64,000 nucleotides of DNA, from assembly GCF_013337185.1 (NCBI RefSeq), contig NZ_SWDE01000006.1, positions 124,001 through 188,000 of the forward strand, read 5' to 3'. This DNA comes from Serratia proteamaculans. GTDB lineage: Bacteria > Pseudomonadota > Gammaproteobacteria > Enterobacterales > Enterobacteriaceae. Shown one piece after another: positions 1,153 through 15,778 of this stretch. Made by a program: the position numbers and the translations under genes. The notes beneath the pieces are model-generated. The model did not search any database. It was not told the DNA's origin and saw only the letters and a program-made list of their open reading frames with translations. Numbering within the stretch: position 1 is the stretch's first letter; each line of letters starts with the position of its first letter.

Positions 1153-3124
<1,972 letters not shown>

Positions 3125-3346: not shown

Positions 3347-4270
3347 ATGATGACGCTGCGCCAAATCCGCCACTTCATTGCGGTGGCGGAAACCGGATCG
3401 ATCTCCGCCGCCGCGCAGGCGGTGTTTGTTTCCCAATCCTCGCTGACGCTGGCCATCCAGCAACTGGAGACCGACATTGGCGTACGGCTGTTTGATCGCC
3501 ACGCCAAGGGCATGAACCTGACGCACCAGGGCCACCAGTTTCTCCGCCAGTCTTATCTGATCCTCGCTACGGTGGACAATGCCAAACGCAGCCTGCAATT
3601 GGGCACCGAAAGCCTGACCGGCAAGCTGACCATCGGCGTGACCAGCCTGGTGGCCGGGTACTTTTTGGTCGAGCTGCTCAAGCGGTTTAAATCGGCCTAT
3701 CCCAATGTCACCATTCAGATGATAGAGGATGAACGTCCTTATATTGAACACCTGCTGGTGAGTGGGGAGATCGATATTGGCGTACTGATACTGTCGAATA
3801 TTGAGGATCGTGATGCGCTACAGACCGAAGTGCTGATGCATTCGCCTTATCGTCTGTGGCTACCGCCACTGCACCCGCTGCTGGATCATGAAAGTATCGG
3901 GCTGGCGGATGTGGCGAAGCTGCCGCTGATCCAGCTTAACGCCGACGAAATGGACGTGCATGCGCGGCGTATCTGGGCGCGCGCCGGAGTGAAACCGGAG
4001 ATCGCCATGAAAACCGGTTCGACGGAGGCGGTGCGCAGCCTGGTCGCGGCGGGCATGGGCGTCTCAATTCTGCCAGACATGGCCTATCGCGCCTGGTCGC
4101 TGGAGGGCAACATGATTGAGGCTCGCAAGCTGGTGGATCTGCTGGAGCCGCTGGACATCGGCCTGGCGTGGCGACGCGGCAGTGCGCGGCCGGAACTGGT
4201 TACGCCATTCCTCACCATTGCCCGTGAGAATGGCAATATGCACGCTGCCGGGCTGAAGCATTCGATTTAA
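3347..4270 (+). CDS. LysR-family transcriptional regulator
   Basis: A 307-residue LysR-type activator or repressor. The N-terminal winged helix-turn-helix is clear (LRQIRHFIAVAETGSISAAA, then SQSSLTLAIQQLE and VRLFDRH), followed by a LysR substrate-binding domain (about 90-300) that would bind the inducer. It lies upstream of the polyamine cluster and points the same way, with a 115-base gap to the first aldehyde dehydrogenase. It is therefore the obvious candidate regulator, though LysR genes are more often divergent from their targets. A second ATG at 3350 directly follows the first; GAGG at 3334 is compatible with either. The ligand cannot be read from sequence; a polyamine or aminoaldehyde is an inference from context. 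Confidence 0.88.
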   Translation: MMTLRQIRHFIAVAETGSISAAAQAVFVSQSSLTLAIQQLETDIGVRLFDRHAKGMNLTHQGHQFLRQSYLILATVDNAKRSLQLGTESLTGKLTIGVTSLVAGYFLVELLKRFKSAYPNVTIQMIEDERPYIEHLLVSGEIDIGVLILSNIEDRDALQTEVLMHSPYRLWLPPLHPLLDHESIGLADVAKLPLIQLNADEMDVHARRIWARAGVKPEIAMKTGSTEAVRSLVAAGMGVSILPDMAYRAWSLEGNMIEARKLVDLLEPLDIGLAWRRGSARPELVTPFLTIARENGNMHAAGLKHSI

Positions 4271-4385
4271 TCGAACGCGGCGTTCAGTATTTAGAATTTG
4301 TTGGCTGCCTGATGCTCGCTTAGTCTGATTGAAACTAACTTATTCACATTTAGTTAACGTTTTGGTCACTTAGGGGCAATACACC

Positions 4386-5849
4386 ATGGCAGATGTGCAC
4401 CTCCTTTCAGGTTTATCCTGTCAGCAATTCATTAACGGTCAGTCGGTCGAGGGCGAAGGCCAGCAGGAGTGCATCGTTAATCCGGCCAATGGTGAAACGC
4501 TGGTTTCCATCACTGAAGCCTCATCGGCGCAGGTGGGCAGCGCGGTTAAGGCGGCACAGCAGGCTTTCGGCCACTGGTCGCGCACCACGCCGGCCTTCCG
4601 TGCTTCCATTTTGCTACGTATTGCCGACGCCATCGAACGTCAGGCCCCGCGCCTGGCCGGTCTGGAGGCGCTCAACTGCGGCAAGCCACTGCATCAGGCG
4701 CTCAATGACGACCTGCCGGCCGCCGTCGACGTGTTTCGTTTCTTTGCCGGCGCGGTGCGTACCCAGCAGGGGCAACTGGCCGGTGAATATATTGAAGGGC
4801 ACACCTCGATGATCCGCCGCGACCCAATCGGCGTGGTGGCCTCGATTGCGCCATGGAACTACCCGCTGATGATGGCGGCGTGGAAGATCGCTCCGGCGCT
4901 GGCGGCGGGCAACACCGTGGTATTCAAACCTTCCGAACATACCCCGCTGACCATTCTTGCGCTGGTGCCTGCGCTGCAGGACATCCTGCCGCCGGGCGTG
5001 CTGAATATCATCTATGGCGGTGGCGAAGGGGTTGGCAGCCATCTGGTTGGGCATCCTCAGGTGCGCTTGGTCTCGGTGACCGGCGATATTGTCACCGGGC
5101 AAAAAATTCTGCAGGCCGCGGCGAAAAGCGTCAAACGCACGCATCTCGAACTGGGCGGCAAGGCCCCGGTGATTGTCTGTGACGACGCCGATCTGGATGA
5201 AGTGGTTAACAGCATCCGTACCTACGGCTATTACAACGCCGGGCAAGACTGTACCGCCGCCTGTCGCATCTACGCGCAGGCGGGGATCTATCCCAAGCTG
5301 GTGGAAGCGTTGGGCGAGGCGGTTGCCAGCCTGCGTTTTGCCCGCAAACGCGATGAAGATAACGAAATCGGCCCGCTGATCAGCAGCCGCCAGCGCGATC
5401 GTGTCGCCAGCTTTGTCGAGCGGGCGCTCAGCCAGCCGCATATTGAATTGATTACCGGCGCCGCCGCGCATTCCGGCCCGGGTTTCTATTACCAACCCAC
5501 GCTGCTGGCCGGCTGCCTGCAAAGCGACGAAATCGTCCAGCGTGAGGTATTCGGCCCGGTGGTGAGCGTCACCCGCTTCGAACATCTGGAGCAGGCGGTC
5601 AACTGGGCCAACGATTCCGAATACGGCCTGGCCTCGTCGGTCTGGACGCAGAATATCGATCGGGCGCTGCATATTGCCGCGCATCTGCAATACGGCAGCA
5701 CCTGGATCAACACCCATTTCACCCTGGCAAGTGAGATGCCGCACGGGGGCCTGAAACGCTCTGGCTACGGCAAAGATCTGTCCAGTGATTCACTGCAAGA
5801 CTACAGCGTAGTCAGGCATGTAATGGCGAAGTTTAAAGCCAGCTTCTAA
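4386..5849 (+). CDS. NAD-dependent aldehyde dehydrogenase, PatD-like paralogue
   Basis: A 487-residue ALDH-superfamily enzyme closely resembling gamma-aminobutyraldehyde/betaine aldehyde dehydrogenases. It shows the proton-abstracting Glu255 in LELGGKAPV, catalytic Cys289 in [13 protein letters not shown], the cofactor loop [10 protein letters not shown] and the NPANGE start of the fold. It is a paralogue of the enzyme at 9941, with shared blocks such as [29 protein letters not shown] and EMPHGG. The likely reaction is oxidation of an aminoaldehyde to the amino acid, but the exact substrate is open: 3-aminopropanal and 4-aminobutanal are both plausible. It is first in the run leading into the YdcSTUV-like importer, with a 61-base gap holding a small hairpin. 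Confidence 0.88.
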
Positions 5850-5859
5850 TGAAACTAGA

Positions 5860-5880
5860 GCGGCAGCCGTTCCCTGCCGC
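5860..5880 (+). other. Intercistronic hairpin before ydcS
   Basis: A 7-bp stem, GCGGCAG (5860-5866) pairing with CTGCCGC (5874-5880), with a 7-base loop, lies between the aldehyde dehydrogenase stop and the ydcS start. No T-run follows, so it is more likely an mRNA-processing or stability element than a terminator. Confidence 0.4.
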
Positions 5881-5910
5881 ACACAGATACGCAACACAGG
5901 GGTCATTACG

Positions 5911-7065
5911 ATGGGAAAAACTACCGCAGTCACCACCACAGTTTCCGCACTCTGTTTCACCGTGCTTTGCGGCCTGGCTCAGGCGGCCGACTTGCCGCAG
6001 GCGCTGGGCAAAGGCGAAGGCCGTCTGGATATCATCGCCTGGCCGGGCTATATCGAACGTGGCCAGTCCGATAAAAACTATGACTGGGTCAGCCAGTTTG
6101 AAAAGCAAACCAGCTGCGCGGTGAATGTGAAAACCGCCGCCACCTCCGATGAAATGGTCAGCCTGATGGCCAAGGGCGGTTATGACCTGGTCACCGCTTC
6201 CGGCGATGCCTCGCTGCGATTGATCTTCGGTAAGCGGGTACAGCCGATCAACCCGGCGCTGATCCCTAACTGGAAAAATATCGACCCGCGTTTGCTGAAC
6301 GGTGCCTGGTACACCGTAGACGGAAAAACCTACGGCACGCCCTATCAGTGGGGGCCAAACCTGCTGATGTACAACACCAAAACCTTCCCGACGCCGCCAG
6401 ACAGCTGGGCGGTAGTGTTCCAGCAACAAAATCTGCCGGACGGCAAGAGCAATCAGGGCCGGGTGCAGGCCTACGACGGGCCGATTTACATCGCCGATGC
6501 GGCGCTGTTCCTGAAGGCTACTCAGCCGCAGCTTGGCATCAGCGACCCGTACCAGTTAAACGAAGAGCAATATCAGGCGGCATTGAAGCTGTTGCGCACC
6601 CAGCATGCGTTGATTCACCGCTACTGGCATGACACCTCGGTGCAGATGAGTGATTTCAAAAACGAAGGTGTGGTGGCCTCCAGCGCCTGGCCGTATCAGG
6701 CCAATGCCCTGAAAGGGGAAGGCCAGCCGATTGGCACCGTGTTCCCGAAAGAGGGGGTTACCGGCTGGGCGGACACCACCATGCTGCACAGCGATGCCAA
6801 GCATCCGAACTGTGCTTACCTGTGGATGAACTGGTCGCTGGAGCCGAAAGTGCAGGGCGACGTTGCCGCCTGGTTTGGTTCGGTACCGGCATCACCGGCG
6901 GGCTGCAAGGCCAGCACGCTACTGGGCGACAAAGGGTGTGAAACCAACGGCTTCAACCAATTCGACAAGATTGCCTTCTGGAAAACACCGCAGGCACAGG
7001 GCGGAAAATTCGTGCCATACAGCCGCTGGACTCAGGACTATATCGCCATCATGGGCGGTCGCTAA
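5911..7065 (+). CDS. ydcS: Polyamine ABC transporter substrate-binding protein (YdcS-like)
   Basis: Periplasmic binding protein of the PotD/PotF type, 384 residues. The N-terminus is a typical Sec signal (basic start, hydrophobic stretch, cleavage near AQA-ADLP). The body matches E. coli YdcS as remembered: GRLDIIAWPGYIERGQ, QFEKQTSCAVNVKTAATSDE, YGTPYQWGPNLLMYNTKTFP and a C-terminal WTQDYIAIMGGR. E. coli YdcS belongs to a putative putrescine importer. The gene heads a ydcSTUV-patD order identical to E. coli, and hairpins flank it on both sides, as is common when the binding protein must be made in excess. Specificity among putrescine, spermidine and aminoaldehydes cannot be told from sequence. 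Confidence 0.92.
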   Translation: MGKTTAVTTTVSALCFTVLCGLAQAADLPQALGKGEGRLDIIAWPGYIERGQSDKNYDWVSQFEKQTSCAVNVKTAATSDEMVSLMAKGGYDLVTASGDASLRLIFGKRVQPINPALIPNWKNIDPRLLNGAWYTVDGKTYGTPYQWGPNLLMYNTKTFPTPPDSWAVVFQQQNLPDGKSNQGRVQAYDGPIYIADAALFLKATQPQLGISDPYQLNEEQYQAALKLLRTQHALIHRYWHDTSVQMSDFKNEGVVASSAWPYQANALKGEGQPIGTVFPKEGVTGWADTTMLHSDAKHPNCAYLWMNWSLEPKVQGDVAAWFGSVPASPAGCKASTLLGDKGCETNGFNQFDKIAFWKTPQAQGGKFVPYSRWTQDYIAIMGGR

Positions 7066-7072
7066 CCCGCGG

Positions 7073-7092
7073 GGGCGTAGCCTGCTACGCCC
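7073..7092 (+). other. Intercistronic hairpin after ydcS
   Basis: An 8-bp perfect stem GGGCGTAG / CTACGCCC with a CCTG loop lies just after the ydcS stop and 27 bases before ydcT. Without a T-run it probably protects the upstream mRNA from 3' exonucleases and so raises binding-protein output over the membrane components. Confidence 0.5.
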
Positions 7093-7119
7093 GATGAATG
7101 CCTATCAGGAGCGCAGATC

Positions 7120-8148
7120 ATGACCATTGCCGTGCAATTTATCGATGTTTCGCGGAGCTTCGGCGAGGTTCGCGCCGTAGACCGGGTTTCTATCGAAATA
7201 CAAGACGGGGAATTTTTCTCCATGCTTGGGCCTTCGGGTTCGGGCAAAACTACCTGCCTGCGACTGATCGCCGGCTTTGAACAACTCAGCGCCGGTTCAA
7301 TTCGTATTCACGGCCAGGAGGCGGCCAACCTGCCGCCGTATCAGCGCGACGTGAATACCGTATTCCAGGATTACGCCCTGTTCCCGCACATGTCGGTGCT
7401 GGAAAACGTGGCCTACGGATTGATGGTGAAGGGCGTCGCCAAACGTGAACGGCTGGCGCGGGCACAGGAAGCGCTGGACAGCGTGGCGCTGGGATTCGTC
7501 GCCGAGCGTAAACCGGCGCATCTTTCCGGTGGCCAGCGTCAACGTGTGGCACTGGCCCGCGCGCTGGTCAATCGACCGCGGGTGCTGTTGCTGGATGAAC
7601 CGCTGGGCGCGCTGGATCTCAAGCTGCGTGAACAGATGCAGGGTGAACTGAAAAAGCTGCAGCGCCAACTGGGGATCACCTTTATTTTCGTCACCCATGA
7701 CCAGAGCGAAGCCTTGTCGATGTCCGATCGGGTAGCGGTGTTCAACAACGGGCGAATCGAGCAGGTGGATGCGCCGCGTGAGCTGTATATGCGGCCGAAG
7801 ACGCCGTTTGTCGCCGAGTTTGTCGGTACCTCTAACGTGGTGCGCAGCGAGCTGGCGCAGCGCTTGCTCGGCCAGACCGCCACCTTCTCGATCCGCCCCG
7901 AGCATATTCGCTTAATGGATCAGGCCGGTGCCGCACAGGGTGAAATCCAGGTACAGGGATTGCTGCAAGAGATCCATTATCAGGGCGCGGCTACGCGCTA
8001 CGAAATTGCGTTGAGCAGCGGTGAGAAACTGCTGGTCAGTGAGGCGAATCCTCAGTGGCACGCCGCCGGGCAGCAGCATCTGATCGGTCAGCCGGTCACC
8101 GCCTGCTGGTCACGTGAGGCGATGGTGCCGCTGCTGGAGGAGAGGTGA
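7120..8148 (+). CDS. ydcT: Polyamine ABC transporter ATP-binding protein (YdcT-like)
   Basis: The ATPase of the importer, 342 residues, PotA family. The nucleotide-binding domain has Walker A GPSGSGKTTCLR, Q-loop (VFQDYALFPHM), the ABC signature LSGGQRQRVALARAL, Walker B VLLLDEPLGALD and the switch His in FVTHDQSEAL. A C-terminal TOBE-like domain (about 240-342) is usual for this family. The gene ends 1 base before ydcU, so the two are translationally coupled. Confidence 0.94.
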   Translation: MTIAVQFIDVSRSFGEVRAVDRVSIEIQDGEFFSMLGPSGSGKTTCLRLIAGFEQLSAGSIRIHGQEAANLPPYQRDVNTVFQDYALFPHMSVLENVAYGLMVKGVAKRERLARAQEALDSVALGFVAERKPAHLSGGQRQRVALARALVNRPRVLLLDEPLGALDLKLREQMQGELKKLQRQLGITFIFVTHDQSEALSMSDRVAVFNNGRIEQVDAPRELYMRPKTPFVAEFVGTSNVVRSELAQRLLGQTATFSIRPEHIRLMDQAGAAQGEIQVQGLLQEIHYQGAATRYEIALSSGEKLLVSEANPQWHAAGQQHLIGQPVTACWSREAMVPLLEER

Positions 8149-8149
8149 G

Positions 8150-9094
8150 ATGGAGATGAGCATCGACTATCCCGCGCCGCGCCGCGGTACCTTGCGCACC
8201 CTGTCGACCTTTCTCTATCGCCGGCCGACGCTGTACCTGCTGCTGTTACTGGTGCCACCGCTGTTGTGGTTCGGCGCGGTGTACCTTGGCTCATTACTGA
8301 CGCTGCTGTGGCAGGGGTTTTATACCTTCGACGACTTCACCATGACGGTGACGCCGGATCTGACCTTCGATAACCTGCGGGCGCTGTTCAACCCGGCCAA
8401 CTACGACATCATCCTGCGCACACTGACCATGGCGGTGCTGGTGTCTCTGGCCAGTGCGGTGTTGGCGTTCCCGATTGCCTACTACATGGCGCGTTACACC
8501 AGTGGCCGCGTCAAAGCGTTCTTTTATATCGCGGTGATGATGCCGATGTGGGCCAGCTATATCGTCAAGGCCTACGCCTGGACGCTGCTGCTGGCAAAGG
8601 ATGGCGTGGCGCAGTGGTTCCTGCAACATCTGGGGCTGGAGCCGGTGTTGGCGGCAATCCTGACCGTGCCGGGCGTGGGGGGCAACACCCTGTCGACCTC
8701 CGGGCTGGGGCGTTTTCTGGTGTTTGTTTATATCTGGCTGCCGTTCATGATCCTGCCGATCCAGGCGGCGCTGGAACGCCTGCCGCCTTCGTTGCTGCAT
8801 GCCTCGGCGGATTTGGGCGCACGCCCGTCGCAGACTTTCCGTTACGTGATCCTGCCGCTGGCGGTGCCGGGCATTGCCGCCGGGTCGATCTTCACCTTCT
8901 CGCTGACGCTGGGAGACTTTATTGTGCCGCAGCTGGTGGGGCCGCCGGGCTATTTCATCGGCAGCATGGTGTACGCCCAGCAAGGGGCGATAGGCAATAT
9001 GCCGATGGCCGCGGCCTTTACCCTGGTGCCGATTGTGTTGATCGCGATTTATCTTTCCATTGTGAAACGTCTGGGGGCCTTCGATGCACTCTGA
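8150..9094 (+). CDS. ydcU: Polyamine ABC transporter permease (YdcU-like)
   Basis: Inner-membrane permease of the PotB family, about 314 residues with six or so hydrophobic segments. It has the permease EAA-type cytoplasmic loop ([22 protein letters not shown]) that contacts the ATPase. The ATG at 8150 is chosen because GGAGGAGAGG ends 5 bases before it and ydcT stops at 8148; an ATG at 8156 is an alternative. Longer in-frame extensions into ydcT lack a ribosome site. The last 11 bases overlap ydcV. Confidence 0.92.
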
Positions 9095-9890
9095 GCGCGC
9101 GCCATTAGGGCTGAAACTGGCCGCCTGGGGCGGTCTGATCTTCCTGCATTTCCCGCTGGCGATTATCGCCATCTACGCCTTCAACACCGAGGACGCGGCG
9201 TTCAGCTTCCCGCCGAAGGGTTTTACGCTGCATTGGTTTAGCATCGCGGCCGGTCGGCAGGACATTATCGATGCGATGCTGCTTTCCGCGCAGATTGCTG
9301 CGCTGGCGACGGCGGTGGCGCTGGTGCTGGGCACTCTGGCAGCGGCGGCGCTGTACCGGCGTGATTTCTTCGGCAAGGACAGCATTTCACTGTTGCTGCT
9401 GTTACCGATCGCGCTGCCGGGCATTGTTACCGGTCTGGCGCTGCTGGCGGCGTTCAAGGCGCTGAATATCGAGCCGGGAGTACTGACCATCGTGATCGGT
9501 CATGCCACCTTCTGTGTGGTGATCGTGTTCAACAACGTCATCGCTCGTTTCCGCCGGACTTCCCATAGCCTGATCGAGGCTTCGATGGATCTCGGTGCCG
9601 ACGGCTGGCAAACCTTCCGCTACGTGATGTTGCCCAACCTGGGTTCAGCATTGCTGGCCGGTGGCATGCTGGCGTTCGCGTTGTCGTTTGATGAAATCAT
9701 CGTCACCACCTTTACCGCCGGGCATGAGCGCACGCTGCCGCTATGGCTGCTCAATCAGCTCGGTCGCCCGCGCGATGTGCCGATCACCAACGTGGTGGCG
9801 CTGTCGGTGATGTTGCTGACCATGATCCCGATTTTGGGGGCTTATTACCTGACCAAGGGCGGCGAAAGCGTCGCCGGCAGCGGCAAATAA
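9084..9890 (+). CDS. ydcV: Polyamine ABC transporter permease (YdcV-like)
   Basis: Second membrane subunit, PotC family, 268 residues with about six transmembrane segments. The EAA loop reads [19 protein letters not shown] and is followed by the conserved FDEIIVTTF segment. It overlaps ydcU by 11 bases and precedes patD by 50 bases, the same order as in E. coli. Confidence 0.92.
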
Positions 9891-9940
9891 ATAGCCTCTT
9901 GACCCTAATGCGTACCAGACATCTTATAAAGGATAATCCT

Positions 9941-11365
9941 ATGCAAAGCCAACTGTTGATTAACGGCCAACTGGTTACCGGCCAGGGGGCGTTGTTGCCG
10001 GTGTATAACCCGGCAACCGGAGAGGTAGTGGTACAGGTGGCTGAAGCCAGTGCAGAGCAGGTCGATCAGGCGGTGCTGGCGGCCGACGCCGCATTTGAAC
10101 ACTGGGGGCAGACCACGCCGAAGGAACGTGCTGAACACCTGCTGAAGCTGGCGGATTTGATCGACAGCCATGCAGAAACCTTCGCCCGCCTGGAATCGAT
10201 TAACTGCGGCAAACCCTATCACTGCGTGCTGAATGATGAACTGCCGGGCGTGGCTGACGTCTTCCGCTTTTTCGCCGGAGCCAGCCGTTGTTTGAGCGGG
10301 CTGGCGGCCGGTGAATATCTGGCGGGACACACCTCGATGATCCGCCGCGACCCCTTGGGCGTGGTCGCCTCGATTGCCCCCTGGAATTACCCGCTGATGA
10401 TGGCGGCGTGGAAGCTGGCTCCGGCGCTGGCGGCGGGCAACTGCGTGGTGCTTAAGCCGTCGGAACAAACACCGCTGACCACCTTCAAGCTGGCCGAGCT
10501 GGCCGCCGGGCTGTTTCCGCCGGGCGTGTTCAACGTGCTGTTTGGCCGCGGCGCCAGCGTCGGCGACAGGCTGACCGGTCATAGCAAAGTGCGCATGGTG
10601 TCGCTGACCGGCTCAATCGCCACCGGCGAACATATCATTGGCCATACCGCGTCCGGCATTAAGCGCACCCATATGGAGCTGGGGGGCAAGGCGCCGGTGC
10701 TGGTGTTTGATGATGCCGACCTGCAACAGGTGGTGGAAGGGATCCGCAGCTTTGGTTTCTACAACGCCGGTCAGGACTGTACTGCCGCCTGTCGCATTTA
10801 CGCGCAGAAAGGCATTTATCCGCAGTTGGTGAAGGCGTTGGGCGAGGCCATTGGCAGCCTGAAGATCGGACCACCGGAAGAGGCCGACAGCGAACTGGGC
10901 CCGTTGATTACCGCTCAGCATCTGGAGCGCGTGGTGGGGTTTGTCGAGCGCGCCAAGGCATTGCCGCACGTGCAGGTGGTGACCGGTGGTGAGCGGGTTA
11001 ACGGCCCTGGCTACTATTTCCAGCCGACGCTGTTGGCCGGTGCTCGCCAGGAGGATGAAATCGTGCAGCGTGAAGTGTTCGGGCCGGTGGTGACCGTCAC
11101 GCCGTTCGACGATGAGGCGCAGGTGCTGGCCTGGGCCAACGAGTCTGACTACGGGCTGGCGTCGTCATTGTGGACCCGGGACGTGGGGCGGGCACACCGT
11201 CTGAGCGCCCGTTTGCAATACGGCTGCACCTGGGTGAATACCCATTTCATGCTGGTGAGCGAGATGCCGCACGGTGGCCAAAAGTTGTCCGGCTACGGCA
11301 AGGATATGTCGATGTACGGCCTGGAAGATTACACCGCTATCCGCCATGTGATGTTTAAGCATTGA
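9941..11365 (+). CDS. patD: Gamma-aminobutyraldehyde dehydrogenase PatD
   Basis: It oxidises 4-aminobutanal (from putrescine transamination or spermidine cleavage) to GABA with NAD+. The ATG at 9941 has AAAGGA 8-13 bases upstream and gives a 474-residue protein beginning [12 protein letters not shown], the same length and start type as E. coli PatD (YdcW). An upstream extension of the frame runs through ydcV and is discarded. Catalytic residues are Glu246 (MELGGKAPV) and Cys280 ([15 protein letters not shown]). The C-terminus RHVMFKH matches the E. coli family. Its place directly after ydcSTUV and before the spermidine dehydrogenase supports the assignment. Confidence 0.95.
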
Positions 11366-11402
11366 TTAATCAGGTTATATCTGCAAAATAACGCGGCTTT
11401 CA

Positions 11403-11420
11403 GACCGGCTCCGGCCGGTC
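11403..11420 (+). other. Intercistronic hairpin between patD and the dehydrogenase gene
   Basis: GACCGGC pairs with GCCGGTC around a 4-base loop in the 86-base gap between patD and the next gene. An A-rich stretch with GAAGGAAG follows, which is the next ribosome site. Weak evidence for partial termination or mRNA processing. Confidence 0.35.
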
Positions 11421-11451
11421 TGATGATAATAAAAATAGAAGGAAGCCAATT

Positions 11452-13368
11452 ATGAGCATCACCAGACGCGATTTTCTTAATGGGGTGGCGATCACCATCG
11501 CCGCCGGGTTAACGCCGATGCAGATCCTGCGGGCATCGCCGCAAACCGCCAATCAAACCCTCTATTACCCGCCGACGCTGACCGGGCTGCGCGGCAACCA
11601 TCCCGGTTCGTTTGAGCATGCACACCAGCTGGGGCGTGACGGCAAGGCCTTCGATTTTGCCGCAGTACCGGCCACAGAGGAGTTCGATTTGGTGGTGGTC
11701 GGTGCCGGTATCAGCGGCCTGGCCGCGGCCTGCTTCTGGCAGCAAATGAAAGGTCAGCAGCAGCGTATCTTGCTGATCGACAACCATGATGACTTCGGCG
11801 GCCACGCCAAGCGCAATGAATTCAGCAGCGAAAATGGCACCATTCTCGGCTACGGCGGCAGCGAGTCGCTGCAGTCACCGCGCTCCAACTTCAGTCCGGT
11901 GGCGATGGGGCTGCTGCAAAAACTGGGCGTCAGCATCGACAACCTGGAAAAAGCCTTCGATAAAACCTTCTACCCGGATCTGAACCTGAGTCGCGGCGTC
12001 TATTTCGATCGCAAAAACTTCGGCGTCGACAAAGTGGTGAACGGTGACCCTGGCCGTATGGTGGCGGATGATATTCCCCATGATCGTCTCAATGGCCGTT
12101 CCTACGAAGCCTTTATCGGTGATTTCCCGCTGCCGGAAAGCGATCGCCAGGCGCTGATTGCACTGCACACGGTGGATAAGGATTACCTGCCGGAGATGAG
12201 CCAGGAGCAGAAAAGCGAATGGCTCGACAAGCACAGCTATACCGAGTTCCTGCGTGACAAGGTCGGTCTGAGTGAAATGGCGATCCGCTATTTCCAGCAA
12301 ACTACCAGTGACTTCCAGGCGGTGGGCATCGACGCCACTTCTTGCAGCGATGCGCGTATTTGCGATCTGCCTGGCCTGAACGGCATGAACCTGCCGCCGC
12401 TGGATGAAGAGTCACAGGCGGATCTCGACGATCCTTACGTGTTCCACTTCCCGGATGGCAACGCCACGCTGACACGCTTAATGGTGCGCCATCTGATCCC
12501 GGCGGTAGCGCCTGGCGGCAAGGATATGAATGACATCGTGCTGGCGAAGTTCGACTACAGCCAGCTTGACCGCGCGGAGTCACCGGTAAAACTGCGGTTG
12601 AACAGCACCGGGCTGCATGCGGCCAACGTCGGCGACAAGGTCGAAGTGACCTACCTGACCGGCGAGAAAATGACCAAGGTGCGCGCCGGGCAGGTAGTGA
12701 TGGCCGGCTACAACATGATGATCCCTTATCTGGTGCCGGAAATGTCGCCGGAGCAGCAGCAGGCGCTGAAGCAGAACGTCAAGTCGCCGCTGGTGTACAG
12801 CAAAGTGGTGATCCGTAACTGGCAGTCGTTTATCAAACTGGGCGTGCATGAAGTTTACTCGCCAACGGCGCCTTATTGCCGTGTGAAGCTGGATTATCCG
12901 GTGAGCATGGGCGGCTACCAGCACCCGCGCGATCCGAACCAGCCGATTGGCCTGCACATGGTGTATGTGCCGACGCTGGCGGGCAGCGGGTTAAGCCCGC
13001 GTGAACAGTCGCGCAAAGGCCGAGCCTTGCTGTTGGGCACGCCGTTTGAAGTGCATGAGCAGATGATCCGCGAGCAGTTGCAGGGCATGCTCGGCTCTGC
13101 CGGTTTTGATCACCAGCGTGATATCGAAGCGATTACCGTAAACCGCTGGTCGCACGGCTATTCCTACTTCCTCAACGGGTTGTTTGACGACGAGGACGAG
13201 GCGAAGAAAATTATTGAAACGGCGCGTAAGCCGATCGGCAAAATTGTGATTGCCAACTCGGACTCCGACTGGAGCCCATACGCCAACTCGGCGATCGATC
13301 AGGCGTGGCGCGCGGTTAATGAACTGGCTTTCGGCCATGTTCCCGCTGCTGCCAAGGAGGGAGCATGA
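11452..13368 (+). CDS. spdH: Periplasmic FAD-dependent spermidine dehydrogenase (SpdH-like)
   Basis: A 638-residue flavoprotein. The first 30 residues form a twin-arginine signal (SITRRDFLNG, then a hydrophobic stretch), so the folded holoenzyme should be exported by Tat. The FAD-binding Rossmann motif is VVVGAGISGLAAACF, with the GAGISG core at residues 84-89, followed by an acidic turn (LLIDNHDDFGGHAKRNEF). Overall layout resembles P. aeruginosa SpdH and the classical FAD- and haem-containing spermidine dehydrogenase of Serratia, which splits spermidine into 1,3-diaminopropane and 4-aminobutanal. The stop overlaps the start of a cytochrome c gene (ATGA), suggesting the cytochrome is its electron acceptor. 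The assignment is by family memory plus a very consistent context; another amine substrate remains possible. Confidence 0.8.
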   Translation: MSITRRDFLNGVAITIAAGLTPMQILRASPQTANQTLYYPPTLTGLRGNHPGSFEHAHQLGRDGKAFDFAAVPATEEFDLVVVGAGISGLAAACFWQQMKGQQQRILLIDNHDDFGGHAKRNEFSSENGTILGYGGSESLQSPRSNFSPVAMGLLQKLGVSIDNLEKAFDKTFYPDLNLSRGVYFDRKNFGVDKVVNGDPGRMVADDIPHDRLNGRSYEAFIGDFPLPESDRQALIALHTVDKDYLPEMSQEQKSEWLDKHSYTEFLRDKVGLSEMAIRYFQQTTSDFQAVGIDATSCSDARICDLPGLNGMNLPPLDEESQADLDDPYVFHFPDGNATLTRLMVRHLIPAVAPGGKDMNDIVLAKFDYSQLDRAESPVKLRLNSTGLHAANVGDKVEVTYLTGEKMTKVRAGQVVMAGYNMMIPYLVPEMSPEQQQALKQNVKSPLVYSKVVIRNWQSFIKLGVHEVYSPTAPYCRVKLDYPVSMGGYQHPRDPNQPIGLHMVYVPTLAGSGLSPREQSRKGRALLLGTPFEVHEQMIREQLQGMLGSAGFDHQRDIEAITVNRWSHGYSYFLNGLFDDEDEAKKIIETARKPIGKIVIANSDSDWSPYANSAIDQAWRAVNELAFGHVPAAAKEGA

Positions 13369-14552
13369 GCATGCGTTCACTGTATTTACTGACCTTACTG
13401 GCGGCTGGCGGTTCGGCGCAGGCGATGTCGGCCGGGGAATATGTCGCCAGGGCCGGTGACTGCACCGCTTGCCATACCACGCCGGGTGGCGCGCTATTTG
13501 CCGGTGGCATGAAGTTCCCGACCCCGATGGGCAATATTTACGCTACCAATATTACGCCGGACAAACAGCAGGGCATCGGTGCCTATTCCTTTGACGAGTT
13601 TGACCGTGCGATGCGCCAGGGGATCGCCAAAGATGGCCATCGACTGTATCCGGCGATGCCATACACCTCTTACGCCAAAATGAACGCGGAAGATATGCGC
13701 GCGCTGTACGACTATCTGATGAAGGAAGTCCCGGCGCAGAACACCGCCAACCGCGCCAGTGATATCAGTTGGCCGCTGTCGATGCGTTGGCCGTTGGCAA
13801 TATGGAACCAGCTGTTCCATGAGGATACGCCTTATCAACCGGACAGCAGCCAGAGCAGTGAGTGGAACCGTGGCGCCTATCTGGTGCAAGGGGCGGGGCA
13901 CTGCGGCAGTTGCCATACGCCGCGCGGCTGGGCGATGCAGGAGAAAGGGCTGGACAGCAAAGATCCGGCCTTCCTGAGCGGTGCCGAACTCGATGGCTGG
14001 TACGCTTCTGGAATTCGCGGGCTGAAACAGGATGAAGTGGTGGCCTTGCTGAAAACCGGGCGCAGCCAACATGCGGCCGTCGCAGGGCCGATGAGTGACG
14101 TGGTTAGCCACAGCACGCAATATCTTACCGACGGTGATTTGAACGCCATTGCTACTTACCTGCACAGTCTGGCGGCAGAAAAACCGGCGGCGGAGAAACC
14201 TGTAGCCATGGCGGTCGACAACTGGCAGGCGGGGCAACGCAGCTATGCCATGTACTGTTCAACCTGTCACGGTAACAAAGGTGAGGGCAGCTCCAATACC
14301 ATTCCGGCATTGGCGGGTAACGCAACGGTCACGGCGGATAATCCACTAACCGCGCTGCGCGTGGTGCTGGAAGGAGCACATACGCCGATCACCCAGCATG
14401 CAACTGCGCTCGCCATGCCGGGTTACGCCTGGAACTTGAATGACCAGCAGGCTGCCGATCTGATGAGTTATTTACGGGGAAGCTGGGGCAACCAGGCGGC
14501 ACCGGTCACGGCGCAGCAGGTAAAAGAGACTCGCAAGCTGGCGGAAAAATAA
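13365..14552 (+). CDS. Tri-haem periplasmic cytochrome c, electron acceptor for the dehydrogenase
   Basis: A 395-residue exported cytochrome c. After a signal peptide (cleavage near SAQA-MSAG) there are three haem-attachment sites: CTACH at 33-37, CGSCH at 180-184 and CSTCH at 298-302, one per cytochrome c domain. The build is that of the tri-haem subunits of membrane alcohol and gluconate dehydrogenases, which pass electrons to ubiquinone or a terminal oxidase. Overlap of 4 bases with the spermidine dehydrogenase gene argues for a dedicated redox partner. No obvious C-terminal membrane anchor is seen, so it may be soluble or held by its uncleaved signal. Confidence 0.9.
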   Translation: MSMRSLYLLTLLAAGGSAQAMSAGEYVARAGDCTACHTTPGGALFAGGMKFPTPMGNIYATNITPDKQQGIGAYSFDEFDRAMRQGIAKDGHRLYPAMPYTSYAKMNAEDMRALYDYLMKEVPAQNTANRASDISWPLSMRWPLAIWNQLFHEDTPYQPDSSQSSEWNRGAYLVQGAGHCGSCHTPRGWAMQEKGLDSKDPAFLSGAELDGWYASGIRGLKQDEVVALLKTGRSQHAAVAGPMSDVVSHSTQYLTDGDLNAIATYLHSLAAEKPAAEKPVAMAVDNWQAGQRSYAMYCSTCHGNKGEGSSNTIPALAGNATVTADNPLTALRVVLEGAHTPITQHATALAMPGYAWNLNDQQAADLMSYLRGSWGNQAAPVTAQQVKETRKLAEK

Positions 14553-14555
14553 CGG

Positions 14556-14585
14556 AAGGGCGCGGTAACAGGCCGCGCCCCTTTC
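14556..14585. terminator. Bidirectional terminator between the cytochrome gene and hmp
   Basis: GGGCGCGG (14558-14565) pairs perfectly with CCGCGCCC (14573-14580). A CTTTC tail follows on the plus strand, and a TTCCGTTATTTTT tail on the minus strand, so it can serve both convergent genes. Confidence 0.75.
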
Positions 14586-14587
14586 AA

Positions 14588-15778
14588 TTACATGACCTTG
14601 TGCGGACCGAAGCATTCATAGTGGATGCGATCGGCCTCTACGCCCATCTCCAGCAGTTGGCTGGCCACAGACTGCATAAACGGCAGCGGCCCGCAGAAGT
14701 AGTAATGCATCTGCGGCGTGGCAAGCGTTTCGCGCAGGGCACTGAGGTTCATCAGGCCACGGCTCTGGTAGTCGCGGCCTGCCACATCATTGGCACCCGG
14801 TTGGTTGTACCACACGTGACGGCTCAGATTCGGCATGCGGCCGGCAATATCCGCCACTTCATCGGCAAAGGCGTGAACGCTGCCGTTTTCCGCCGCGTGC
14901 AGCCAGTGCACGTCCGCTGGGTGCTGGTTATCGTGCAGAGTATGGAGCATGCCAAGCATCGGTGTTTGGCCGACACCGGCGGAGATCAGTGCCACCGGGG
15001 TTTCCGGCTGCGCTTCGAGGAAGAAATCCCCGTGCGGCGGGGCGATATAAATTACGTCGCCTTCTTTGGCCTGCTGGTGCAGGAAGTTCGATACTTTCCC
15101 CTGATCCTCTCGTTTCACCGCAATGCGATAGTATTCGCCGTTCGGTGAGGTGGTCAGTGAGTATTGGCGAATTTCCTGATTTTCCATGCTGTCGTGCTTG
15201 ATGTAGACCGCCAGGTATTGGCCAGGTTTGAAGTCGATGACCTTGCCCCCGTCAACCGGTGCCAATACGAAACTGCAAATCACTTCGCTCTGTGGCTGCT
15301 TTTTGACGATGCGGAATGCACGTCGATCGCGCCAGCCGCCCTCGGCAGTTTCGCTGGCCTGGTAAATCTGGCCTTCGCGCTGGATAAATACGTCCGCCAA
15401 CACCCCGTAGGCTTTGCCCCAGGCGTCCAGCACTTCCTGGCCTGGGCTGAACATCTCGTCCAGCGTGGCAATCAGATGGCTGCCGACAATCTGATACTGG
15501 TCCGGGCGAATATTCAGGCTGGTATGCTTTTGGGCGATACGTTCCACCGCTGGTAACAGCGCCGCCAGATTCTCGATATTCACGGCGTAGGCGCAGATGG
15601 CATCGAACAGGGCCTGACGCTGATCGCCATTGCGCTGGTTGTTCATATTGAACACATCTTTTAACTCGGGATTATGCTCGAACATACGGTCGTAGAAGTG
15701 GGCGGTCAGCTTTGGCCCGGTAGCGGCCAGCAGGGGAATGGTAGATTTTACGGTGGCGATGGTTTGGCTATCCAGCAT
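14588..15778 (-). CDS. hmp: Flavohaemoglobin, nitric oxide dioxygenase
   Basis: It detoxifies nitric oxide to nitrate using O2 and NAD(P)H, in the cytoplasm. The 396 residues comprise a globin domain (about 1-140, with Tyr29, Gln53 and proximal His85), an FAD-binding ferredoxin-reductase domain ([20 protein letters not shown]) and an NAD-binding domain ([14 protein letters not shown]). It is divergent from glyA, as in E. coli. A palindromic NsrR-like site lies about 50 bases upstream of the start, consistent with induction by nitric oxide. Confidence 0.97.

Follow-up and report, generated by a model that had tools for sequence, protein, structure and literature searches.

A Serratia gene cluster with a possible role in extracytoplasmic spermidine oxidation and aldehyde retrieval

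Introduction

Why do the genes of an ABC importer of the YdcSTUV type stand next to those of a predicted spermidine dehydrogenase and a tri-haem cytochrome c, and what would such an importer carry? This question is raised by a gene cluster in the 5.28 Mb genome of Serratia proteamaculans, which was analysed in a stretch of 64,000 nucleotides, called the window in the following. Putrescine import by YdcSTUV is called putative in one paper (PMC10936423), and the system is listed as an identified putrescine importer in another (PMC8674398). Serratia marcescens was the source of a purified spermidine dehydrogenase that contains FAD and haem (Tabor and Kellogg 1970, as cited by PMC12564564 and PMC7576179), and the passages citing it do not describe cluster partners of this enzyme. 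No title among the matches listed in a literature search has the present cluster as its subject. The kinds of parts in the cluster are known, and their joining suggests what the common YdcSTUV importer may carry. The reading preferred here, to which we give slightly less than an even chance, is an operon for oxidation of spermidine outside the cytoplasm and retrieval of the aldehyde formed.

Organization of the cluster

Nine open reading frames were confirmed on the forward strand between positions 3347 and 14552, with glnB (2786-3124) on one side and hmp (14588-15778, reverse strand) on the other. The features of the region are:

3347..4270, forward: LysR-type regulator (Pfam HTH_1 and LysR_substrate)
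4283..4303, forward: conserved promoter- or operator-like site TTCAGTATTTAGAATTTGTTG, 5' of ALDH1 (motif search)
4333..4355, forward: inverted repeat AACTAA-N11-TTAGTT, candidate LysR box (sequence reading)
4386..5849, forward: ALDH1, similar to aminobutyraldehyde dehydrogenases (PRK13473, 782 bits)
5911..7065, forward: YdcS, solute-binding protein (NF041888, 795 bits; PDB 6nlp, 737 bits)
7120..8148, forward: YdcT, ATPase (ABC_tran, TOBE_2)
8150..9094, forward: YdcU, permease (family scan; probable start 8150 or 8156, frame open from 8114)
9084..9890, forward: YdcV, permease (family scan)
9941..11365, forward: PatD, 4-aminobutanal dehydrogenase (TIGR03374, 927 bits; PDB 1wnb, 838 bits)
11401..11422, forward: conserved RNA hairpin in the gap between patD and spdH (folding z-score and alignment)
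11452..13368, forward: SpdH, predicted FAD and haem b spermidine dehydrogenase with a twin-arginine motif (PDB 7d9f, 817 bits)
13365..14552, forward: tri-haem cytochrome c with a Sec-like signal (PDB 8hdd, glucose dehydrogenase beta subunit, 331 bits)
14556..14582, bidirectional: terminator-like hairpin at the end of the predicted operon (hairpin scan)

The start of PatD was placed at 9941 rather than at the longest-ORF start, 9743, and the Tat and Sec signals were read from the sequence by eye. The genes ydcU and ydcV overlap, as do spdH and the cytochrome gene, by 4 bp (ATGA). A preliminary description had listed a LysR regulator, an aldehyde dehydrogenase, YdcSTUV, PatD, a Tat-motif flavoprotein and a tri-haem cytochrome on one strand, and family scans and searches of solved structures agree with this list. 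The operon-like arrangement that it proposed is likewise in keeping with the layout, namely the common strand and the conserved promoter-like site at the head of the cluster. Its label "self-contained" proved too strong, because the GABA transaminase GabT is encoded elsewhere and the cluster does not account for 1,3-diaminopropane, no aminotransferase for this diamine having been found inside the cluster.

PatD lies above the curated cut-off of TIGR03374 (927 versus 909 bits), in line with its earlier assignment. ALDH1, 60% identical to PatD, stays below that cut-off (746 versus 909 bits) and reaches that of the subfamily PRK13473 (782 versus 615 bits). The ydcR-ydcSTUV-patD locus of E. coli has the same gene order, and its importer and PatD proteins are 73-83% identical to those of the window. 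E. coli has ydcR, however, and not LysR or ALDH1, and by blastn no match to SpdH was found in 5426 of its genomes, 5364 of which matched ydcS.

Regulation and RNA elements

The regulator scores below the NCBIfam cut-off for PtrR (NF047711; 96 versus 400 bits). The 21-base site at 4283-4303 is unique in the window at up to 3 mismatches (0.00 expected) and recurs with 0-3 mismatches 77-143 bases 5' of ALDH1 at 36 of 36 true ALDH1 loci from Serratia, g33 and Pseudomonas, a count in which at least three genomes appear twice and from which four further PatD matches were left out. The Rahnella-like genome G252 carries the site with 4 mismatches. A TAGTCT-like hexamer is found 17 bases after the site, and in our reading its geometry with the last six bases of the site would be that of a sigma-70 promoter. 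The inverted repeat at 4333-4355 is imperfect in some Serratia and is missing from the Pseudomonas gaps read. No LysR dyad shared with Pseudomonas turned up there, and what the two have in common is the 4283-4303 site. A general promoter scan was of no use (6 found, 5.7 expected).

The hairpin between patD and spdH (z -4.4, 4-base loop, no U-run) had changes on both sides in three of nine pairs among 8 Serratia rows, with one pair broken in four of the eight. It may set a separate mRNA stability for spdH and the cytochrome gene. No known RNA element was matched there in Rfam at the gathering threshold.

The binding protein and the cargo of the importer

YdcS exceeds the curated cut-off of NF041888 (795 versus 725 bits). 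After 6nlp, its nearest solved homologues are the polyamine transport protein 3ttl and PotF. In the pocket of PotF one amine of putrescine is gripped by S38, D39 and D247, residues at the opposite end include E185 and D278, an aromatic box is built from W37, W244 and F276, and a triple change at the proximal site leaves no putrescine binding (PMC8666671). In an alignment of 23 YdcS rows, one from the window, one from E. coli and 21 from loci of the order, D39 was replaced by Gly, E185 by Tyr, His or Ala, and D247 fell into a gap in every row, while W37, W244, a Trp at 276 and D278 were kept throughout (PotF numbering). YdcS is therefore a distant PotF homologue which has only D278 left of the four carboxylates D39, E185, D247 and D278; all four are kept in the genome's own PotF, encoded elsewhere. 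The same residue pattern was obtained in 13 of 13 rows of a smaller run, five of them from Pseudomonas; this run left out three Aeromonas-type rows lacking a key peptide, and the 23-row run was made without that filter. Position 254, on which the two alignments disagree, was left unused. YdcS has an additional Asp at PotF position 87.

4-Aminobutanal or 1-pyrrolinium would fit such a pocket, which offers an aromatic cage and a site for one cationic end, and the pocket lends support to the earlier suggestion that the cargo of the importer differs from the substrate of the dehydrogenase, in a pathway split across the membrane. The preliminary description had also taken a role of YdcSTUV in putrescine handling as known, which is too firm for a pocket without most of the diamine carboxylates and with the two papers cited above differing between putative and identified. 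1-Pyrroline has a pKa of 6.8 and is volatile when neutral (PMC5550421), and this volatility would be a reason for active uptake. By the same figures part of it is uncharged at pH 7 and might pass through membranes without a carrier, which speaks against a need for retrieval.

With the same enzymes, YdcSTUV might instead carry a polyamine or diamine (putrescine, 1,3-diaminopropane or spermidine), PatD receiving its aldehyde from another cytosolic aminotransferase and the product of SpdH entering by diffusion. We consider this unlikely, even though 3ttl and PotF are close behind 6nlp, the name of putrescine importer is used with or without "putative" in both papers (PMC8674398, PMC10936423), D278 and the aromatic cage are kept, and the Asp at 87 could replace a lost carboxylate, which would also weaken the case for retrieval. 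Diamine import has to be reconciled with the loss of D39, E185 and D247 in 23 of 23 YdcS proteins, the abolished putrescine binding of PotF with proximal-site changes (PMC8666671), a genome which already has PotF, and the absence of PatA.

The best score of the PatA profile in this genome is 219 bits against a cut-off of 659, and its seven matches are of the AstC, ArgD, Dat, BioA, AptA, HemL and GabT types, so PatD is here without its usual cytosolic supplier. The AptA-type omega-aminotransferase might nevertheless be a source of the aldehyde, a further point against retrieval. At E 1e-100 no PatA was found in the eight Serratia genomes searched (this one included), G320 (g33), G252, the seven genomes of the Aeromonas genus (G332, G302, G254, G341, G071, G091, G224) and G083 (g15), and PatA was present in all three genomes of the Buttiauxella genus (G330, G136, G164) and in all five family genomes with YdcS and no SpdH. 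The missing PatA does not track SpdH, because three of the Aeromonas-genus genomes and G083 have YdcS, no PatA and no SpdH match. The Dat-type aminotransferase is a separate observation, from which the genome may also make 1,3-diaminopropane.

Two modules and their joining

SpdH is present in 20 of 24 other Serratia genomes searched, the four lacking it being small (1.5-3.6 Mb). Stretches were fetched from 13 of these 20, and in 12 of them the whole cluster occurs in order in the interval from nadE to hmp, a constancy of place which makes it more than chance. In the thirteenth, from S. inhibens, LysR through most of patD is gone, and a 54-residue PatD remnant is followed by spdH and the cytochrome gene. 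Beyond Serratia, the distribution of SpdH is patchy, with matches at E 1e-60 in 17 of 394 genomes from the order and in 15 of 398 from a phylum sample, this genome being in both counts.

Neighbours were compared at the best 80 named SpdH loci among the matches listed. A cytochrome gene lies immediately 3' of SpdH in 31 of them, six being Serratia with the importer, and 17 loci, all from Pseudomonas, have the importer but no cytochrome adjoining SpdH; L122 is by count the 18th importer-linked locus, though ydcS falls off its contig. Neither was seen in the available flanks of the remaining 31, some of which are short. As less than 1.3 kb is available downstream of SpdH in 3 of the 80 and less than 8 kb upstream in 16, a missing neighbour in these means little. 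Pairs of SpdH and cytochrome recur in Enterobacterales, Aeromonas and Commensalibacter, and one Pseudomonas locus (L103) has the cytochrome and no importer. Erwinia aphidicola and E. persicina have the spdH-cytochrome pair without the importer at the same site between glrR and hmp. In G252, which shares 87% identity with Rahnella rivi L098 over 13 kb, LysR-ALDH1-ydcSTUV-patD and spdH-cytochrome are on different contigs, and importer module and SpdH are also unlinked in Buttiauxella G136 and Aeromonas G302. The Commensalibacter-like genome G451 is 85.5% identical over 12 kb to L100. The comparative data are thus those of two modules, spdH-cytochrome and LysR-ALDH1-ydcSTUV-patD. The unlinked loci of G252 and Aeromonas, the S. 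inhibens locus without importer and the 3 of 17 SpdH-positive genomes of the order without YdcS are evidence against retrieval.

These modules could be neighbours by chance, with spdH-cytochrome working by itself in respiration, detoxification or the making of 1,3-diaminopropane, and the importer module as a separate nitrogen-scavenging operon. The two Erwinia, S. inhibens (by deletion), the importer of G252 without SpdH beside it and the conserved hairpin standing between patD and spdH would all fit this reading, which we nonetheless hold to be rather improbable in view of the following points.

The first is the adjacency of patD and spdH in two lineages of SpdH. Serratia SpdH is placed among cytochrome-linked SpdHs, those from Erwinia, Mixta and Rahnella, and not with the importer-linked ones of Pseudomonas, and a single ancestor for all importer-linked SpdHs was rejected (p-AU 3e-20, log-likelihood 153 lower) in a tree of 42 rows, from which 26 of the 68 rows of a first tree, including the cytochrome-linked L115 and L141, had been left out, and with groups that were named after inspection of that first tree. 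The adjacency has therefore arisen by separate joining or by replacement in place, and we take it as the best sign that importer and SpdH act together, against which has to be set the occurrence of each module without the other as a neighbour. The importer genes of an Enterobacterales sample (8 rows) form one clade (100/100) apart from Pseudomonas, and for that reason a recent arrival of the importer module in Serratia from Pseudomonas is not the simplest reading. A mosaic origin of SpdH by recombination was not borne out either, sliding identity giving no clear block beyond the end of the Tat signal.

Secondly, another PatD-like dehydrogenase (47-49% identical) is found upstream of SpdH in seven of nine Enterobacteriaceae loci, and one lies downstream in all three Commensalibacter loci (adjacent in L099, about 3-4 kb away in the two others), so that SpdH has a gene of the aminoaldehyde dehydrogenase type close by in several distinct arrangements. 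Thirdly, YdcS occurs in 14 of the 17 SpdH-positive genomes of the order compared with 22 of 295 in the order sample, where genomes of one genus are not independent and kinship is uncorrected; by genus the figures are 6 of 8 and 8 of 100. Finally, a weak scan found no promoter-like or terminator-like site in the gap between patD and spdH.

The flavoprotein

SpdH, which is 98% identical to a Serratia proteamaculans SpdH, matches P. aeruginosa SpdH (PDB 7d9f) full-length, over residues 1-625, with 817 bits, and the spermidine dehydrogenase activity suggested earlier is predicted from this match. The P. aeruginosa enzyme has FAD and a surface haem b with the ligands H54 and H562, and in a truncated form its haem was reduced upon addition of spermine, with transfer from FAD to haem (PMC12564564). 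The corresponding residues, H58 and H568, do not vary among the 11 SpdHs aligned (42-100% identity), and since both ligands are kept the protein is probably a flavocytochrome with FAD and haem b. It shares the twin-arginine motif with the P. aeruginosa enzyme (PDB 7d9f-7d9j), which makes the periplasmic location proposed before likely. The importer-linked Pseudomonas SpdHs that were fetched (17 and L122, the P. aeruginosa locus not being among them) differ in having no adjoining cytochrome. The S. marcescens enzyme, from the same genus and also with FAD and haem, is probably the orthologue; SpdH identity is 91% in S. ureilytica and S. bockelmannii. The substrate is not certain from sequence, homologues 41.5-45.5% identical to the P. 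aeruginosa enzyme being without an assigned one (PMC12564564), but an amine other than spermidine is very improbable given the full-length match and the enzyme purified from S. marcescens.

The cytochrome and the electron route

The cytochrome has CXXCH motifs at residues 33, 180 and 298 and is homologous over nearly its full length to the tri-haem subunits of dehydrogenases for glucose, alcohol and fructose (PDB 8hdd, 8gy2, 7w2j). It differs from these in having SpdH as gene partner and in lacking the C-terminal membrane anchor, no hydrophobic stretch being found beyond the signal. The anchor is missing in 30 of 31 SpdH-linked cytochromes and present in one. Thirty of 32 rows for cytochromes 3' of SpdH form one clade (SH-aLRT 89; 29 of these rows at 95), and another 24 rows, most of them paralogues encoded by the same genomes, fall outside it. 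Rows from Marinobacter and Chromobacterium and row L177, labelled a paralogue though it adjoins an SpdH (upstream of it), are placed at the base of the clade without resolution. Distances of SpdH and cytochrome were correlated among 19 representatives thinned from the 32 rows (r 0.84, reached in 0 of 5000 permutations), host kinship adding to r. Three members of the cytochrome-linked SpdH clade (L054, L140, L144) have no adjoining cytochrome match. A subset of SpdHs has this cytochrome as a co-inherited partner. Both identities in the earlier pairing of a Tat-signal FAD dehydrogenase with a cytochrome have stood, and the picture is refined by the probable haem b of SpdH, unnoticed before, and by the restriction of the cytochrome to this subset.

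No cytochrome c1 was found in the genome, with a positive control in Caulobacter; a bc1 route is therefore unlikely, and delivery of electrons to the quinone pool is what we infer.

Proposed pathway and its meaning

In the preferred reading, retrieval of a periplasmic aldehyde, Tat-exported SpdH would cleave spermidine, and perhaps spermine, in the periplasm to 1,3-diaminopropane and 4-aminobutanal, which would cyclise to 1-pyrroline. Electrons would pass from FAD to haem b, as in the P. aeruginosa precedent, and then presumably to the tri-haem cytochrome c and the quinone pool. YdcSTUV would bring in the monocation of 4-aminobutanal or 1-pyrrolinium, PatD would oxidise the aldehyde to GABA, ALDH1 acting on the same or a related aminoaldehyde, and GabT could degrade the GABA. 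The LysR regulator would act at the conserved site 5' of ALDH1.

A wider proposal is more tentative and, in our estimate, more probably wrong than right. It holds that YdcSTUV, also in E. coli, is an ABC importer for 4-aminobutanal or 1-pyrroline and not for putrescine, that in Serratia and Pseudomonas it retrieves the periplasmic aldehyde made by SpdH, and that in Serratia a dedicated tri-haem cytochrome links SpdH with the quinone pool. As E. coli keeps ydcSTUV-patD without SpdH, aldehyde import would there need an outside source.

The predicted operon in Serratia gives a concrete candidate cargo for an importer whose ydcS is near-universal in E. coli and whose cargo has been called putative (PMC10936423), and it points to a possible electron acceptor for spermidine dehydrogenase, which was described from Serratia in 1970. 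Should the readings of cargo and acceptor both be true, Serratia would have a pathway divided by the membrane, with a reactive aldehyde produced on the outside and taken back into the cell.

A conserved hairpin with a loop of four bases was found at positions 11401–11422 of the window, in the gap between patD and spdH, the gene of the putative spermidine dehydrogenase. This hairpin lacks a U-run and possibly plays a role in RNA processing or stability. Some Serratia relatives carry inserts of about 50–190 bases in intergenic gaps, located between patD and spdH in loci L088 and L048 and in other gaps in L079, L089, L081, and L094. The insert in the patD-spdH gap of L048 has what we take to be an ERIC-like appearance.

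The stretch from the LysR gene through most of patD is missing in L090 (S. inhibens) and L082, where a PatD remnant of 54 residues lies ahead of spdH and the cytochrome gene. A Rahnella-like genome (G252) contains the complete LysR-ALDH1-ydcSTUV-patD module (L226) without spdH, which is found together with its cytochrome gene on a different contig. On a 580 kb plasmid of Duffyella gerundensis the spdH-cytochrome pair (L169, 12001–15103) has no adjoining importer. Unlike the remaining Pseudomonas loci among the matches listed, L103 has the pair (66% identity for SpdH, 55% for the cytochrome) and lacks a linked LysR-ALDH1-ydcSTUV-patD module.

SpdH homologues of Helicobacter and Campylobacter (L132, L134, L136, and L139; 53–56% identity) adjoin neither a cytochrome nor an importer match. 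Contigs of Acidobacteria and Alphaproteobacteria (L153, L150, L158, L164, and L167) contain clusters of 2–4 SpdH-like genes, possibly an expanded family acting on other substrates.

The genome from which the window was taken also encodes a Dat-type diaminobutyrate aminotransferase (L234, C1:554300-556200), and 1,3-diaminopropane may therefore additionally be synthesized there by the C4 route.
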